DNA of 64,000 nucleotides from Bradyrhizobium sp. Gha (GTDB taxonomy: Bacteria; Pseudomonadota; Alphaproteobacteria; Rhizobiales; Xanthobacteraceae), in NCBI RefSeq assembly GCF_900113735.1, contig NZ_FOQM01000003.1, forward strand, positions 248,001-312,000, in the 5' to 3' direction. Under the pieces are notes generated by a model. It had not been told where the DNA came from, made no database searches, and saw nothing but the letters and a program-made list of their open reading frames with translations. This document shows positions 3,001 through 46,927 of this stretch, piece by piece. The stretch's first letter is position 1, and each line of letters starts with the position of its first letter. A program made the position numbers and the translations under genes.

Positions 3001-3693
3001 GTTGGCGACCGCGATCGTCACCTCGGCGATGTTGCGAACCTGGTTGGTCAGGTTGTTCGCCATGGAGTTGACGCTCTCGGTCAAGTCCTTCCAGACGCCG
3101 GTCACCTCAGGCACCTGGGCCTGCCCGCCGAGCTTGCCCTCGGTGCCGACCTCGCGCGCCACGCGCGTCACCTCGGAGGTGAACACGCCGAGCTGCTTGA
3201 TCATCGTGTTGACGATGGTTGCCGATTGCAGGAATTCACCGCGCAGCGGGCGGCCCTCGACGTCGAGCTTGACGGTCTGGATCAGGTCGCCCTGTGCCAC
3301 GGCCGCGACCGCGCGCGTCACCTCGCGGGTCGGCCACAACAGATCGTCGATCAGCGTGTTGACGGAGCCTTCCATGTCGGCCCAGGAGCCGCTGGCGAGC
3401 CCGAACTTCACGCGCTGCCGGGTCTTGCCTTCGCGTCCGACCACCTGGCCGACCAGCTCCAGCTGCTGCGCCATGCGCTGGTTGGCCGCGATGATTTCGT
3501 TGAAAGTGTCGGCAATCTTGCCGTCGATGCCGAGATAATCGCCGCTCATGCGCACCGAAAAATCGCCGCTGCGCATCGCCTGAAGCGCGAGCAGCAGTTC
3601 GGCTCGGGAATCCGGCTCCGAGGTGCCGTTGGGCTTGGCTTTTGGGACGCGACGACCGGAGCGTGATGTTGTTCCGGGATCGAGGTCGCTCAT
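1..3693 (-). CDS. Tandem-HAMP sensor (hybrid) histidine kinase, N-terminal part
   Basis: Reading leftward from ATG at 3693-3691 gives 1231 uninterrupted codons that leave the window, so the C-terminus is missing. After a short hydrophilic N-terminus ([13 protein letters not shown]) and one diverged HAMP-like segment, a 92-residue unit repeats twelve times between about residues 160 and 1200. Each unit carries phrases such as [38 protein letters not shown] and [15 protein letters not shown], which are HAMP-type signalling segments. The last visible residues ([14 protein letters not shown], then [14 protein letters not shown]) look like the linker and start of a GAF domain. Known relatives in Bradyrhizobium and fungal Nik1/Os-1 kinases continue into GAF, histidine kinase and receiver domains; that part is inferred here. 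No signal peptide or membrane segment is visible, so it is probably cytosolic. Its ligand is unknown. Confidence 0.9.
169..3480 (-). repeat. Twelve tandem 276-bp in-frame HAMP-coding units
   Basis: The same anchor (coding NTMV or a close variant) recurs every 276 bases, at 169, 445, 721, 997, 1273, 1549, 1825, 2101, 2377, 2653, 2929 and 3205. The spacing is exact, equals 92 codons, and contains no indels. Units differ at third positions and at a few residues, and alternate between [22 protein letters not shown] and [11 protein letters not shown] variants. The array is coding sequence inside the sensor kinase, not an independent element. Confidence 0.93.
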
Positions 3694-41175: not shown

Positions 41176-42366
41176 ATGGAAAGCTCCGGCCTCCAGCGTG
41201 TCCTGAACTGGCTGATTGACGGCGGGAGGACCTCGGGGACTTCGGCCGACATGATCGCCGCCGTCTGCGAGAAGCTGGTCGAGGCCGGCCTGCCGCTGAC
41301 GCGGTTCGGCATGTTCATCCGCACGCTGCATCCGGAAATCTTCGGCCGCAACTTCATCTGGCGGCAGGGCCAGAAGGTCGAGGAGGGCACGGTCGATTTC
41401 GAAATTCTGCAGACGCCCGAATTCGCAAGGAGCCCGCTTCGTATCGTGTTCGAACAGGGAATCGAAGTGCGGAGCCGCATGGACGACCCCGACAGCAGGC
41501 GCTTCCCGTTTCTCGACGACATGCGTGCCGAAGGCGTGACCGACTATATTGCGATGCCGATGCCGTTTCTCGATGGCTCGATCCACGCGACGAGCTGGGT
41601 CACGCGGCGGCCCGGCGGCTTCGGTGACGACGACATCGCTTCCATCAGGATGATCATGGCGCCCCTCGCCCGCGTCAGCGAGATCGTCAGCCTGCGCCGC
41701 ACCGCCGAGATGCTGCTCGACACCTATGTCGGCAACCGCGCCGGTGCGCGCATCCTCGGCGGCCAGATCCGCCGTGGCCACAACGACACCATGCAGGCGG
41801 CGATCTGGTTGTCGGATCTGCGCGGCTTCACCGCACTGTCGGACCGGCTACCGGCCGAGACCGTGGTCGAGATCCTCAATCGTTATTTCGACTGTCAGGT
41901 CACGGCGATCCGCGGCCATGGCGGCGAGGTTCTGAAGTTCATGGGCGACGGTTTGCTCGCGGTGTTTCCGATCGACGAATATGTCGGCGACGTCGCCCAT
42001 GTCTGCACGCGCGTGCTGGAAGCCGCGCGTGAATCCCGCGCAAGCGTCGAGGCACTGGCCTTTCCGGTCAGCGGCGTGATCGAGCGGTTCCGCTTCGGCG
42101 TCGCGCTCCATGTCGGCAACATCCTCTACGGCAATATCGGCGGCGGTAACCGGCTCGACTTCACCTGCATCGGCCCCGCCGTCAATCTCGCCGCACGGCT
42201 GGAGAAGATCACGGGGCGCCTGGGTCGGACCGTCGTCGCCTCGGAAGGCTTTGCCAATGTCTGCCGCGAAGGCTGGCACGCGCTCGGCGAATTCCCGATC
42301 GCGGGATTTTCCAAGGCGCAGCGTGTGTACGGGCTCGCGGAGGAGACACCGGTGGTGATGGCTTAG
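41176..42366 (+). CDS. Class III adenylate cyclase with N-terminal sensor-like domain
   Basis: 396 residues. Residues 1-175 form a GAF-like region (LTRFGMFIRTLHPEIFGRNF, MDDPDSRRFPFLDDMRAEGV). The cyclase domain follows: metal-binding D214 (WLSDLRGFTALSDRLP) and D258 (KFMGDGLLAVFP), K254 and the LDFTCIGPAVNLAARLE segment, consistent with ATP as substrate. No membrane helix, so it is a cytosolic cAMP producer controlled by its N-terminal domain. The peptide/radical SAM pair follows 252 bases downstream on the same strand; whether they are linked is unknown. Confidence 0.9.
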   Translation: MESSGLQRVLNWLIDGGRTSGTSADMIAAVCEKLVEAGLPLTRFGMFIRTLHPEIFGRNFIWRQGQKVEEGTVDFEILQTPEFARSPLRIVFEQGIEVRSRMDDPDSRRFPFLDDMRAEGVTDYIAMPMPFLDGSIHATSWVTRRPGGFGDDDIASIRMIMAPLARVSEIVSLRRTAEMLLDTYVGNRAGARILGGQIRRGHNDTMQAAIWLSDLRGFTALSDRLPAETVVEILNRYFDCQVTAIRGHGGEVLKFMGDGLLAVFPIDEYVGDVAHVCTRVLEAARESRASVEALAFPVSGVIERFRFGVALHVGNILYGNIGGGNRLDFTCIGPAVNLAARLEKITGRLGRTVVASEGFANVCREGWHALGEFPIAGFSKAQRVYGLAEETPVVMA

Positions 42367-42618
42367 GGCATCTGTCCAGGACGCATGTCTGCTCGTTGAG
42401 ATGGATCAGACTGACACCTTGGGCTCGGAGTGAGGCTGCAAACATCTCGATCCGGCACCGACAAGCCCGGCAAGTCTGTATTGGTCCGTCGACTCCAGGC
42501 CGCCCGGCACATTGCCGCAACAATGGAAAAGGTATAGTGTTCGTCATTGCTCAGCTGGCTCGATATGCCGGTCTTTCGTTCGATCTCTGCACTGCGTCGC
42601 GAAAAGAGGAGCACAATC
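42367..42618. promoter_or_regulatory. Leader region of the peptide/radical SAM locus
   Basis: 252 bases between the cyclase stop and the precursor-peptide ATG. No exact EcfG site and no convincing gene are seen. It must hold the promoter of the peptide gene unless transcription reads through from the cyclase. Confidence 0.35.
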
Positions 42619-42897
42619 ATGCCGATTACGACGCTGAAGGTCTTGGCGAGCCTCATCCAATTGCATGGGCCTGGCGCAACCATTCAGAGCGACCATCAGG
42701 GTATCGACGCGTTGCTGAACGATCTTCGTGGGCAGGGTACGGAGCAAGGCGTTGTCTCCGATGAACCCGTGGTGACCCAGGCTGCTTTCAGACGGGGCGC
42801 TTTTGCCAAAGGCGCCAACGCAGGCGCCTTTCGCAGGGGAGGATACGCTCCGGGCGCCGGGGCGTTCCGGCGAGGCGGATTCGTTCGAGGGTACTAG
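42619..42897 (+). CDS. Candidate radical-SAM-modified RiPP precursor peptide
   Basis: 92 residues from ATG 42619, with GAGGAG about 8 bases upstream; a longer in-frame start at 42547 lacks such a site. Residues 1-54 look like a leader (MPITTLKVLASLIQLHGPGA, then HQGIDALLNDLRGQ). Residues 55-92 are a core built only of small, aromatic and basic residues with the pattern aromatic-X-basic: F57-R-R, F62-A-K, F71-R-R, F83-R-R, F88-V-R, plus Y76-A-P and a final G-Y. Spacers are Gly/Ala-rich (GANAGA, GAGA). The three FRRG copies use different codons, so the motif is conserved at protein level. The maturase gene starts 32 bases downstream. The three-residue spacing fits substrates of cyclophane-forming radical SAM enzymes; this is inference. 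Confidence 0.75.
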   Translation: MPITTLKVLASLIQLHGPGATIQSDHQGIDALLNDLRGQGTEQGVVSDEPVVTQAAFRRGAFAKGANAGAFRRGGYAPGAGAFRRGGFVRGY

Positions 42898-42929
42898 ATC
42901 AATTTCTTCCAGCTCGTCTCGGTGTCGGC

Positions 42930-44111
42930 ATGTCGGCTGACGGTCTAGATTGTGTCGCCTTCCAGGATCAGCCGATCACGCAATTGCTGGTCAAGGTCGC
43001 GACGAGATGTAACATCGACTGTTCCTATTGTTACTGGTTTCGCGACGCGTCCGTTTACAGCAAGCCGAAGCTGATGAGCCCTGACGTGCAGCATCGATTG
43101 CTGCAGCGCATCGAGGAGCACGTCGTCCGATTTTCCCTGATTGATTTTCCTGTCATTCTGCACGGCGGAGAGCCGTTGCTGTGGGGCGTCGAGAACTTCC
43201 ACCGCTTTGCCGAGGCCTGCGAGGCCATTTCATCACGGACCGGATGCGACATACCTCTCGCGGTCACGACCAATGGTGTGTTGATCGATGAGGAATGGCT
43301 GGCGTGCTTCGAGGCCCGCAACATTTCGGTTGCGATCAGCGTTGACGGGCCGGCCCATATTCACGACCTCCATCGCAAGACGTTTCAGGGTACGGGCACT
43401 CATGCCAGCGTCGAACGTGCCGTTCGCATGCTGGTGTCGCGCAACATTGGGGTCATTGCCCTGGCCGTCTGCAATCCCGCTTATACGCCGCAGGAATACG
43501 TCGATTTTTTCGCCGCATGTGGAATCTCCAACTACGACATCATGATCCCCGACGCGACGGTGGATGAGATGCCGCCGTCCATTGCCGCGTTCTACAAGGG
43601 GCTGTTCGACCTGTGGCTGGAGGCAAATCGCTCGACGCCGACGACCGATATCCGCATCATCTCGGACATGATCACCGCCCTGCTTGGCAACAATTCACCG
43701 ACCGAGGGCGTGGGCCACAAGCCTGTCGAGCTTTGCACCGTGATGACCGACGGCACCGTGGAGGCCCACGATGTGCTGCGGATCGCAGGCGACGGCTTCA
43801 CCAACACCGGTTTCAACATCTTCGATCACGCGATCGATGAGGTCAGGAATGAGCCGCGCTGGAAAGCCGCACGCCATGCCTCAATCAACCTTTGTGCGAA
43901 GTGTCGCCAATGCAAGTTCAAGGACGCCTGCGGGGGAGGCTATCTTCCGCATCGTTTCTCCAAGAAAAACGGCTACGACAATCCGTCCGCATATTGCGAC
44001 GATCTCTATTCGATGTTTGAGAACATGCAATCCGTATTGGAGAGCCATCTCTATGTCAGCAAGCCGGACGGTAATCGTGTCAACGTGCGCGACACGCCGG
44101 CGGGCGCCTAG
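42930..44111 (+). CDS. Radical SAM/SPASM peptide maturase
   Basis: 393 residues. The radical SAM cluster is C27-x3-C31-x2-C34 (TRCNIDCSYCYW), with the SAM-binding G-G-E-P at 79-82 (ILHGGEPLLWG), TTNGVLIDEEW and SVDGPAHIHDLHRK typical of the subfamily. The SPASM region carries C269, C322-x2-C325-x2-C328-x5-C334 and C356, enough for auxiliary 4Fe-4S clusters. This is the architecture of anSME-like sulphatase activators and of RiPP maturases such as FxsB, XncB and GrrM. No sulphatase is nearby, while a repetitive small peptide gene lies directly upstream, which favours peptide modification. No protease, exporter or second modifying enzyme follows; the next gene, clpS, is on the other strand. Confidence 0.88.
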   Translation: MSADGLDCVAFQDQPITQLLVKVATRCNIDCSYCYWFRDASVYSKPKLMSPDVQHRLLQRIEEHVVRFSLIDFPVILHGGEPLLWGVENFHRFAEACEAISSRTGCDIPLAVTTNGVLIDEEWLACFEARNISVAISVDGPAHIHDLHRKTFQGTGTHASVERAVRMLVSRNIGVIALAVCNPAYTPQEYVDFFAACGISNYDIMIPDATVDEMPPSIAAFYKGLFDLWLEANRSTPTTDIRIISDMITALLGNNSPTEGVGHKPVELCTVMTDGTVEAHDVLRIAGDGFTNTGFNIFDHAIDEVRNEPRWKAARHASINLCAKCRQCKFKDACGGGYLPHRFSKKNGYDNPSAYCDDLYSMFENMQSVLESHLYVSKPDGNRVNVRDTPAGA

Positions 44112-44191
44112 TGGACGTGGCTGCGTTGGCCGGCCCGCATCGGCTTTACTGTGTTGCTGATGATCTGTGGCAGTCGAGAGACGCCTGAGGC

Positions 44192-44883: not shown

Positions 44884-45306
44884 TCAGCTCCTCGTCAAGC
44901 GATTGTAGCGGCTCGCCATCATATGCCCCGCCCATACCGACGCCAGCCAGCAGACGACGGACGCCGCGATATAGGCGAGGGCAGTAAATTTCATGCCGCC
45001 GTGGAACAGGCGGAAGGTCTCCAGGCTGAAGGTCGAGAAGGTGGTGTAGCCACCGCAGAAGCCGGTCATCACGAACTGCCGGTGCTCCGGCCGTGCCAGC
45101 ACGCGGCCGTCGGGGCCGGTCAGCGTCGCGTAGAACCCGATGATCAACGAGCCCGTGGCGTTGATGAACAGCGTCGCGAAGGGAAAGCCGGGGCCGGTAT
45201 CGAGGGTAAGTCCGACCAGATAGCGCGTCAGCGCGCCGACGATGCTGCCGGCAGAAACCCAGGCATAGAGCATCGCGGTGCGCCGGCGGTCTGCTGGAGG
45301 AGTCAT
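44884..45306 (-). CDS. crcB: Fluoride channel subunit CrcB/Fluc
   Basis: 140 residues with four membrane helices. Conserved features: A-L-T-R-Y, the pore asparagine in FINATGSLIIGFY, and the TM3 segment GFCGGYTTFSTFS whose F90 and F93 form the fluoride-binding Phe box. Fluc channels are dual-topology dimers exporting F-. This subunit has the complete Phe box, whereas its partner encoded immediately upstream lacks the first phenylalanine, suggesting a heterodimer. A start at codon 12 (MLYAWV) is possible. Confidence 0.93.
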   Translation of the reverse strand: MTPPADRRRTAMLYAWVSAGSIVGALTRYLVGLTLDTGPGFPFATLFINATGSLIIGFYATLTGPDGRVLARPEHRQFVMTGFCGGYTTFSTFSLETFRLFHGGMKFTALAYIAASVVCWLASVWAGHMMASRYNRLTRS

Positions 45307-45312
45307 CTGCCT

Positions 45313-45702
45313 CTAGCCTCCAAGCCTGTCGGCGAGGAGGAAGCCGCAGCTCACGGCCGCGAGGCACAGTCCGACCGAGAACACGAGGTTGCCGAGTGCG
45401 TTCACCGGCTCGCCGTTGCGCGCCAGGGTCAGCGTCTGCAGGCTGAACGAGGATACCGTGGTGTAGCAGCCGAGGAAGCCGGTCACCGCGAACAGCCACG
45501 GATTGGGCGAGGCGAACGCAGATCCGGGATGTGTCGCCAGGGCGCCAAAGATACCGATCAGGAAGGCGCCGGTGACATTGATGGTCATGGTGCCCCAGGG
45601 AAACGTCTCGCCCAGCCGGCGCGCGATCGCGCCGGAGACGAAATAGCGGGCGCAGCCGCCCAGCACGCTGCCGATCACGATGGCGATCAATCCGGTCAGC
45701 AC
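45313..45702 (-). CDS. crcB: Fluoride channel subunit CrcB/Fluc, partner
   Basis: 129 residues from GTG 45702, which follows GGGAG and lies 16 bases past the MFS stop; an ATG at 45759 would start inside the MFS gene. Four helices, with ARYFVSG, the pore asparagine in TINVTGAFLIGIF, and TM3 GFLGCYTTVSSFS, where V83 replaces the first Phe-box residue while F86 is kept. It probably forms a heterodimer with the following CrcB in which one of the two pores is altered. Confidence 0.9.
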   Translation of the reverse strand: MLTGLIAIVIGSVLGGCARYFVSGAIARRLGETFPWGTMTINVTGAFLIGIFGALATHPGSAFASPNPWLFAVTGFLGCYTTVSSFSLQTLTLARNGEPVNALGNLVFSVGLCLAAVSCGFLLADRLGG

Positions 45703-45718
45703 GATGAATAGTCTCCCA

Positions 45719-46927
45719 TCATGACTTGTTCTCCATCGCCAGCCCATTGCCGACGGCAAGCAGTCCCGCGAGCGCGGTCAGTACGAAGCCGAGCCCGGCG
45801 AGAAACGTGCCGGCCGGACCAAAGGCATCCCATAGCGCGCCGGCGATCACGCTCGCGGCCAGCATCGCAAGGCCTGTGAACAGGTTGAAATAGCCGAACG
45901 CGGTGCCGCGCAGCGCCGACGGTGCAGTATCGGCGACGAGCGCCGAGAGCAAGCCCTGCGTCAGTCCCATATGCAGGCCCCAGAGCACCACACCGAACGC
46001 GAGGCCGTGCAGGTTCGGCAGCAGCGCCAGCGCGAGGTCGGCGCCGGCGAGACAGACGAGGCCGAGCGCGAGCAGGGCGGTCCGGTTGATCCGGTCCGAC
46101 AGCACGCCCGCCGGATAGGCCGAGAGCGCGTACGTCACGTTCATCAGCACCAGCACCGCCGGCACCCACATCGCATTGAGGCCGATGTTCTGTGCGCGCA
46201 GGATCAGGAAGGCTTCGCTGAAACGAGCGAGCGTGAAGACGACACCCACCGCGACGACGCGCCAGTAGACGGGCCCGAGTTGCCGCAGCGCGGCGGTGTT
46301 GAGCGGGTTCTTCGCAGGCTCTCGGTTCGCGTCCGGCTCCGGCTCGCTCACGGCGAACGCGATCAGTCCGAAGGACAGGAATGCGGGCAGCACGGCGAGC
46401 CAGAACACGGTCGCAAAATGATCTGATGTCCACCACATCAGGCCGATCGCGGCGAGCGGCCCAATGAAGGCGCCGATCGTGTCGAGCGACTGCCGCAAGC
46501 CGAAGCTCGCGCCGCGCAGGCCGGCAGGGGAGATATCGGCGATCAGCGCATCGCGGGGTGCGCCACGAATGCCCTTGCCGACGCGATCGATGAAGCGCGC
46601 CGCGACCAGCCAGCCGACGTTGGGGGCGAGCGGGAACAGCGGCTTCGTCGCCGCAGCCAGCCCGTAACCGAGCGTGGCGAGCAGCTTGCGGCGGCCCAGC
46701 CAGTCCGAGAGCGCTCCGGAGAAGATCTTCGTAATCGAGGCGGTCGCCTCCGCGATGCCTTCGATGAAACCGACAGCGAGGGTGGAGGCCCCGAGCACGG
46801 TGACGAGATAGACCGGCAGCAGTGCGTGGATCATCTCGGAAGAGATGTCCATCAGCATCGAGACGAAGCCGAGCACCCAGATTGCTCTCGGCAGCCCCCT
46901 GCGCGCAGCATTCGATGTGATCGTCAC
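45719..46927 (-). CDS. MFS transporter of the fluoride operon
   Basis: 402 residues from GTG 46927, after GGAGA; longer frames begin inside the riboswitch and terminator and are rejected. Twelve hydrophobic segments. The first is WVLGFVSMLMDISSEMIHAL and motif A is ALSDWLGRRKLL; FIDRVGKGIRGAPRDALIAD is a further landmark of this subgroup. Its position as first gene behind a fluoride riboswitch and before two crcB genes implies a role in fluoride tolerance or in exporting something harmful under fluoride. Substrate unknown. Confidence 0.88.
   Translation of the reverse strand: MTITSNAARRGLPRAIWVLGFVSMLMDISSEMIHALLPVYLVTVLGASTLAVGFIEGIAEATASITKIFSGALSDWLGRRKLLATLGYGLAAATKPLFPLAPNVGWLVAARFIDRVGKGIRGAPRDALIADISPAGLRGASFGLRQSLDTIGAFIGPLAAIGLMWWTSDHFATVFWLAVLPAFLSFGLIAFAVSEPEPDANREPAKNPLNTAALRQLGPVYWRVVAVGVVFTLARFSEAFLILRAQNIGLNAMWVPAVLVLMNVTYALSAYPAGVLSDRINRTALLALGLVCLAGADLALALLPNLHGLAFGVVLWGLHMGLTQGLLSALVADTAPSALRGTAFGYFNLFTGLAMLAASVIAGALWDAFGPAGTFLAGLGFVLTALAGLLAVGNGLAMENKS

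Follow-up and report, generated by a model that had tools for sequence, protein, structure and literature searches.

A candidate two-gene RiPP cassette with Phe-x-Arg/Lys repeats and a radical SAM/SPASM maturase in Bradyrhizobium

The gene pair and its genomic surroundings

The window, that is, the whole 64,000-nucleotide stretch of Bradyrhizobium sp. Gha analyzed here, carries two neighboring genes on the same strand, one for a 92-residue peptide and one for a 393-residue radical SAM/SPASM enzyme (table 1). Their coordinates and lengths, as well as the 32-base gap between them, are as given in the original prediction, and the good ribosome-binding site it claimed is indeed found 7 bases 5′ of the ATG.

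Table 1. Features of the gene pair and its flanks (positions in the window)
Feature	Position	Strand	Evidence
Approximate insert with the pair, between the cyclase gene and clpS	42369..44190	+	empty sites in 12 of 30 clpS loci
GGTATAGT, putative -10-like element	42531..42538	+	GGTATA-like string at about this place in many, not all, upstream regions
CTTTCGTTCGATCnCTGC, conserved segment 5′ of the peptide gene	42573..42590	+	70-90% consensus of 43 upstream sequences
Ribosome-binding site AGAGGAG	42605..42611	+	sequence; aGGAg present in the upstream consensus
Precursor peptide gene, 92 aa	42619..42897	+	sequence, precursor alignment, profile matches, pN/pS
Leader, residues 1-39, invariant QLHGP and SDH	42619..42735	+	alignment of 24 precursors
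Core, residues 55-92, motifs F57-R-R59, F62-A-K64, F71-R-R73, F83-R-R85, F88-V-R90	42781..42894	+	alignment, motif counts
Radical SAM/SPASM maturase gene, 393 aa	42930..44111	+	ORF, NCBIfam/Pfam scores, solved-structure matches, predicted fold
C27-x3-C31-x2-C34, radical SAM cluster ligands	43008..43031	+	invariant in 24 near orthologues and 33 rows
C325-x2-C328-x5-C334 ... C356, conserved auxiliary-cluster site	43902..43997	+	alignments of 24 near orthologues and of 33 rows

The region upstream of the peptide gene (42520-42611) is similar in many orthologues and includes a GGTATA-like string, a GCTCAnCCGG...CCGG segment and CTTTCGTTCGATC. The last of these, extended to the 18-base segment of table 1, is missing in several upstream sequences and has no second perfect copy in its own genome. 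No Rfam match was found in 42300-42700 up to E 1. An upstream hairpin was dropped as a candidate, its perfect stem being formed in part of the sequences only and differing between lineages.

The position of the pair next to clpS was examined by sampling 60 genomes and reading 30 clpS loci. In 12 loci, all without the pair, the end of the cyclase gene and clpS lie within ~65 bases of each other, in four loci the pair (whole, or cut by the end of the stretch) adjoins clpS, and in the remaining 14 the two genes are farther apart or the 1.5-kb flank contains no complete cyclase end. The empty sites indicate an insert of ~1.8 kb carrying the pair in the lineage of the window, and no transposase gene was seen among its ORFs.

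The clpS gene is present in all 60 sampled genomes, 13 of which contain the pair. Among these 13, clpS is located within ~5 kb of the pair in five (G000, G002, G017, G027, and G043), megabases away on the same contig in three (G010, G015, and G031) and on another contig in five (G001, G012, G024, G032, and G037). A function through the adaptor ClpS was ruled out, since clpS is found in every sampled genome and often far from the pair. ClpS is thus a chance neighbor, as the insertion at the clpS site and the empty sites of relatives show. Beyond clpS, two adjacent genes of the CrcB family are located on the minus strand of the window (44884-45759).

The flanks of 22 named loci (up to 4 kb, some of them short) were compared for ORFs of at least 90 aa. 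The maturase and the precursor are both present in all 22 loci. The other ORF groups found in at least five loci are ORFs overlapping the pair and the frame of the precursor itself, the latter in just 16 loci because the size limit of 90 aa excludes many precursors. No conserved partner gene (exporter, transporter, peptidase or protease, immunity) was found, and no flanking ORF of this size occurs in more than four of the 22 loci. The surroundings fall into 15 downstream and 16 upstream groups (blastn, E 1e-20 over 200 bases), where a single context with strongly diverged copies would be split over several groups. The gene pair appears to be a movable two-gene unit.

The precursor peptides and their co-occurrence with the maturase

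The precursor set consists of 44 distinct DNA sequences, which correspond to 43 distinct proteins (the L093 precursor was trimmed at an internal Met, with its core unaffected). Five aromatic-x-Arg/Lys motifs had been predicted for the core of the window peptide, and all five are Phe units; Y76-A-P lies outside the pattern. Throughout the 43 precursors, every core Phe followed by at least two residues (221/221) has Arg (192) or Lys (29) at position i+2. On the contrary, position i+1 is occupied by Arg (135), Val (36), Ala (31), Ile (12), Gly (4), or Leu (3). Five Phe units are found in 37 precursors and six in the other six. Composition-preserving shuffles of the window core produced five Phe-x-Arg/Lys motifs in 17 out of 200,000 cases, and five motifs counting any aromatic residue in 184 out of 100,000. 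This motif is the strongest piece of evidence.

The reading frame of the precursor is, as judged from its codons, under purifying selection. The uncorrected pN/pS is 0.085 for 21 leader codons and 0.028 for eight motif codons, although the latter were chosen for the motif and the figure leans low. Cys, the thioether donor of sactipeptides and ranthipeptides, does not occur in any of the 43 precursors, and only two of them have Ser or Thr in the core. Phe together with Arg/Lys is therefore the obvious substrate, and this composition speaks against thioether or formylglycine chemistry.

In NCBIfam, the sole match of the window precursor up to E 1 is GrrA (TIGR04260), with 14.1 of 31 bits, and YhhA (NF041705) gave no match at E up to 1. 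The leader profile did not match the YhhA precursors, so that a shared ancestry is unsupported. Against two precursors of sister systems (see below), it gave E 0.032 with a probability of 1.6%, a hint at most. A hand-made leader pattern matched none of the 43 FRR precursors.

The distribution of the pair within this genus, whose carriers of the pair live in soil and nodules, was examined in 265 Bradyrhizobium genomes, with at most 19 first-look candidates scored per genome. The enzyme query matched 46 of them at E 1e-60. In detail, 43 near orthologues (own genome included) are 75-100% identical over nearly the whole length, the near orthologue of G656 is split over two contigs, and G003 and G044 contain distant enzymes of 43% and 35% identity, respectively. 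In G587 (L075), the orthologous maturase has an internal TGA, and the precursor gene is open.

A profile built from 24 precursors found matches in 44 of the 265 genomes, each of which has a near-orthologue enzyme, and the other 20 precursors form an independent test. With G003 and G044 set aside, the lists of enzyme and precursor genomes, compared by eye, comprise the same 44 genomes. The expected presence of the peptide gene beside orthologous enzymes and the co-conservation of both genes in other Bradyrhizobium genomes are thus borne out. The remaining 221 genomes gave no precursor match at E 0.001 (at most 19 candidates scored each), and a very diverged stray copy could escape this search. 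The distances between precursors and between enzymes are correlated (r 0.84 over 24 pairs, with 0 of 5,000 permutations as high); common descent explains some of this correlation. The sequence comparisons indicate that the peptide gene and the maturase gene belong together.

The named loci comprise 23 from Bradyrhizobium (out of 25), one from a Riflebacteria bin and one from a Lachnospiraceae bin. In a search of 385 genomes of the class, six matched at 1e-40; one is the own genome, and the best of the others is 35% identical. The YhhB model matched eight of 299 genomes of the phylum at 1e-40 and the FxsB model two of 190 genomes of the class at 1e-50, the own genome included in both and none over the respective cut-off.

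The maturase and its phylogenetic relationships

The maturase contains the Pfam radical SAM domain PF04055 (55.9 bits), with the motif C27-x3-C31-x2-C34 correctly located by the original prediction. The SPASM region had been described as having six cysteines. All six are present (C269, C322, C325, C328, C334, and C356), but they do not form a conserved set, since only four are broadly conserved over the 33-row alignment: C325, C328, and C334 are invariant and C356 occurs in at least 90% of the rows. C269 is invariant among the 24 near orthologues, that is, within the close family only, and C322 is variable even there. A single conserved four-Cys auxiliary site, as suggested by these alignments, is the safer reading.

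FxsB, XncB, and GrrM had been named as relatives. This is roughly right, but the best-scoring catalogued family is YhhB (NF041707), with 302.1 bits against a cut-off of 445. It is followed by FxsB (TIGR04269, which we take to be the family of MscB; 277.9 against 370), XyeB (TIGR04496; 174.1 against 450), anaerobic sulfatase maturase (TIGR03942; 138.9 against 349.45), and GrrM/OscB (TIGR04261; 120.2 against 310). No curated cut-off was reached among the best 25 of the 71 NCBIfam families matched. These scores place the enzyme among the cyclophane maturases and below every cut-off of those 25. FxsB, XncB/XyeB, and GrrM/OscB are, like the window enzyme, of the radical SAM/SPASM type and make cyclophanes, but the window maturase remains 92 to 276 bits under their cut-offs.

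The nearest solved sequence is ChlB (199 bits; PDB 9gm3, 9gmc). The structure of the maturase was predicted from a 30-row alignment (mean pLDDT 89.5, pTM 0.86), and the best Foldseek match of the predicted fold is also ChlB (E 2.8e-35), which superimposes with Z 47.5 and an rmsd of 1.9 Å over 363 residues. The second fold match, the best anaerobic sulfatase maturase (anSME), gives Z 38.5 and 2.3 Å over 350 residues, whereas the epimerase EpeE resembles the fold with a lower Z of 15.7. In both sequence and predicted fold, the maturase thus resembles the cyclophane synthase ChlB most and the sulfatase activators less. The same four auxiliary Cys are aligned in ChlB; however, the two proteins are only 33% identical, and ChlB is a rSAM-HExxH fusion according to the description excerpted from PMC12636437, where the title of a cited work names it a multiple cyclophane synthase.

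A maximum-likelihood tree was built from 34 rows, leaving out L126. Its labels rest on the precursor endings in the cases of L036, L037, and L065 and on kinship to L066 in the case of L067. The six enzymes of the window family group with those of L033 and L034 with modest support (93/73), and L062, from a Candidatus Riflebacteria bin, joins next (99/99, starred). YhhB-type, HaaA-associated, XyeB, FxS-associated, and sulfatase enzymes are located outside this clade. The two anSME rows form a separate long branch, so the clustering with sulfatase maturases that would have contradicted the original prediction is not observed. In the 33-row alignment, WFRDA follows the third Cys in all 16 rows of the clade and in none of the 17 others.

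The precursors of the sister systems also have aromatic-x-basic repeats, with core or repeat boundaries set by eye. In the L033 precursor, 12 of 12 aromatics of the repeat region are in Y-x-R (0/100,000 shuffles as high), in that of L034, 10 of 15 are in Y-R-R (637/100,000), and in that of L062, five of six are in Y/H-x-K (4/100,000). Five Phe of the L034 precursor have no basic residue at i+2. The L033 (781-1344) and L034 precursors, in which the repeats are dense, have a twin-Arg-like N-terminus (by eye), which the window precursor lacks, and neither matches NCBIfam at E 0.01; their enzymes are 70% identical to one another. The L062 precursor (3048-3422) is signal-peptide-like and ends in its repeats, and the adjoining maturase is 38% identical. 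The L033 enzyme matched five of 249 genomes of the order at 1e-60. Repeats of Y/H-x-Gln, H-x-Ser, and F-x-Ser are found beside similar maturases in the upstream peptide of L038, in L085 (1222-1401) and in the upstream frame of L066.

The proposed modification and its alternatives

A radical SAM core with a SPASM-type auxiliary site and an adjacent precursor with aromatic-x-residue motifs, as in triceptide-type systems, are both found here. The Bradyrhizobium pair is probably a minimal triceptide-type RiPP cassette made up of just two genes, which crosslinks Phe to Arg or Lys. The analysis establishes the pair and its co-occurrence, the motif spacing, the kinship of the enzyme and its predicted fold; we infer the Phe-to-Arg/Lys bond, its atoms, the radical steps, the number of rings, the binding of the leader and the role of the product.

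In the proposed scheme, the maturase would bind the conserved leader QLHGPGATIQSDHQGIDALL, and a 5′-deoxyadenosyl radical would take a hydrogen from Cβ of the basic residue (Arg or Lys) at i+2 of each core Phe. This Cβ would then bond to the Phe ring, giving a three-residue cyclophane. Five to six rings would be formed per peptide, each with a loss of 2.016 Da, and the product would be a chain of small rings, strongly basic and with Gly/Ala spacers. The calculated mass of the unmodified full-length peptide, untagged and including Met, is 9532.97 Da, which five rings would lower by 10.08 Da. Radical steps of this kind are generally known from such enzymes.

Arg/Lys becomes more credible as the partner in view of the bonds reported for the top-scoring family, YhhB, from C3 of Tyr and from C2 of His to Cβ of Arg (PMC11002830). 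This chemistry, together with the aromatic-x-basic precursors of the sister systems, leads to the simplest prediction, that is, a bond made by the window enzyme between Phe and Cβ of Arg/Lys. The partner residues in related families are Ser for MscB, Arg/Asn for XncB, and Asn/Asp for OscB (PMC11002830). The cyclophane links named in the excerpt of PMC11002830 are Trp-Arg/Asn/Asp, Phe-Asn, Phe-Ser, Tyr-Asp, His-Ala, Tyr-Arg, and His-Arg; Phe-Arg and Phe-Lys are absent from those named there.

Alternatively, Phe and Arg/Lys may be joined in another way, by a C-N or ether link, by a longer-range link or by crosslinks between neighboring units. Other links are made by other peptide-modifying radical SAM enzymes, for instance, C-N in dynobactin and C-O in darobactin, but the related enzymes in the same source form C-C bonds from i to i+2 (PMC11002830). 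The i+2 residue is always kept while i+1 varies and the spacers differ in type and length, which fits a link inside each unit, and the alternative is considered improbable.

The aromatic-x-basic pattern could also serve a different reaction without a crosslink, such as desaturation, epimerization, or hydroxylation of Arg, Lys, or Phe. Radical SAM/SPASM enzymes are diverse in their chemistry and the predicted fold has some likeness to EpeE. However, a paired Phe is needless for epimerization, the Z of ChlB is far above that of EpeE, and the strict aromatic-basic pairing points to a link, so that a modification of this kind is less probable still.

An enzyme of the sulfatase-activator or thioether-forming type is very unlikely, even though the overall fold and the radical SAM cluster are shared with the anaerobic sulfatase maturases: the maturase falls short of the TIGR03942 cut-off and is separated from the anSME branch of the tree, and the precursors lack Cys altogether and nearly always Ser/Thr in the core. 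Equally unlikely is a conserved RGG-like basic protein that is a chance neighbor of an unrelated radical enzyme, with no working RiPP, since the two genes occur in the same 44 genomes and in 15-16 different surroundings among the 22 named loci, despite the resemblance of the core to RGG-type repeats and the lack of a recurring transporter or protease gene nearby.

The product may either leave the cell and be trimmed with the help of general machinery or be active within the cell. A broader proposal is more doubtful than credible at present. According to it, the enzymes with YWFRDA/FWFRDA after the radical SAM Cys would form a maturase clade, unnamed in NCBIfam and extending from Bradyrhizobium to Candidatus Riflebacteria, specialized for Arg/Lys at i+2 of Phe, Tyr, or His; its Bradyrhizobium branch would make rigid, polycationic chains, each with five or six cyclophanes between Phe and Arg/Lys, and would have spread as a bare 1.8-kb module. 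The lack of an exporter or protease in this module would point to a possible role of the modified peptide within the cell that makes it.

Among the known systems, YhhA/YhhB is alike in its aromatic-x-Arg motifs, in the small peptide gene directly upstream and in providing the best enzyme model. It differs in that the window pair stays below the YhhB cut-off of 445 and has no YhhA match. Seven YhhA-like precursors were aligned, among which L035 scored 62.1 and L069 32.4 bits against the YhhA cut-off of 36, and two of the other five are annotated as YhhA or come from such records. They end in a short block of Y/F-x-R, H/Y-H-R, or H-x-R without spaced F-x-R/K repeats, and they are Tyr- or His-based with the exception of one F-D-R. 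Furthermore, an HExxH hydroxylase domain is fused to the YhhB of L064 (over the cut-off), and the window maturase has none. The exceptional precursor (L069, 1208-1426) has F-D-R in place of Y-D-R and lies beside an enzyme over the YhhB cut-off. This shows that a YhhB may already meet Phe-x-Arg, and it counts against full novelty. Cluster 41, described in 2022 as an uncharacterized peptide with Y/H-Asn-Arg repeats, is likewise predicted to form aromatic-Arg cyclophanes; in the excerpt of PMC9062424, its repeats have Tyr/His and no Phe, and it has its own oxidase and putative peptidase genes.

The triceptide kind is known, and its Bradyrhizobium branch with Phe-to-basic repeats was not seen in the open-access matches listed. 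These contained no paper on the Bradyrhizobium pair (a 2022 triceptide landscape paper, outside this scope, could list the family) and none joining "triceptide" and "Bradyrhizobium". One paper joins Bradyrhizobium, RiPP, and radical SAM, and concerns thioamides according to its excerpt.

If the proposed crosslink is true, Phe-Arg and Phe-Lys would be added to the cyclophane links of one enzyme family, by a two-gene system small enough for direct expression in E. coli. As ready substrates, the 43 natural precursors would cover Arg and Lys at i+2, six different residues at i+1 and both five and six units, and the basic i+2 residue common to the peptides of nearby enzymes would give a rule by which the partner residue could be predicted from sequence. 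That a cassette lacking export genes occurs in 15-16 different settings across 22 loci of a single genus raises the question of the peptide's purpose.

At 1e-30, 20 plasmid records were matched, every one under 60% identity. The YhhAB or related loci on plasmids (L126, L127, L129, and L136) adjoin Fic, caspase-family, NACHT-family, and Piwi/SMEK genes, and such neighborhoods may hint at defence or conflict regions.
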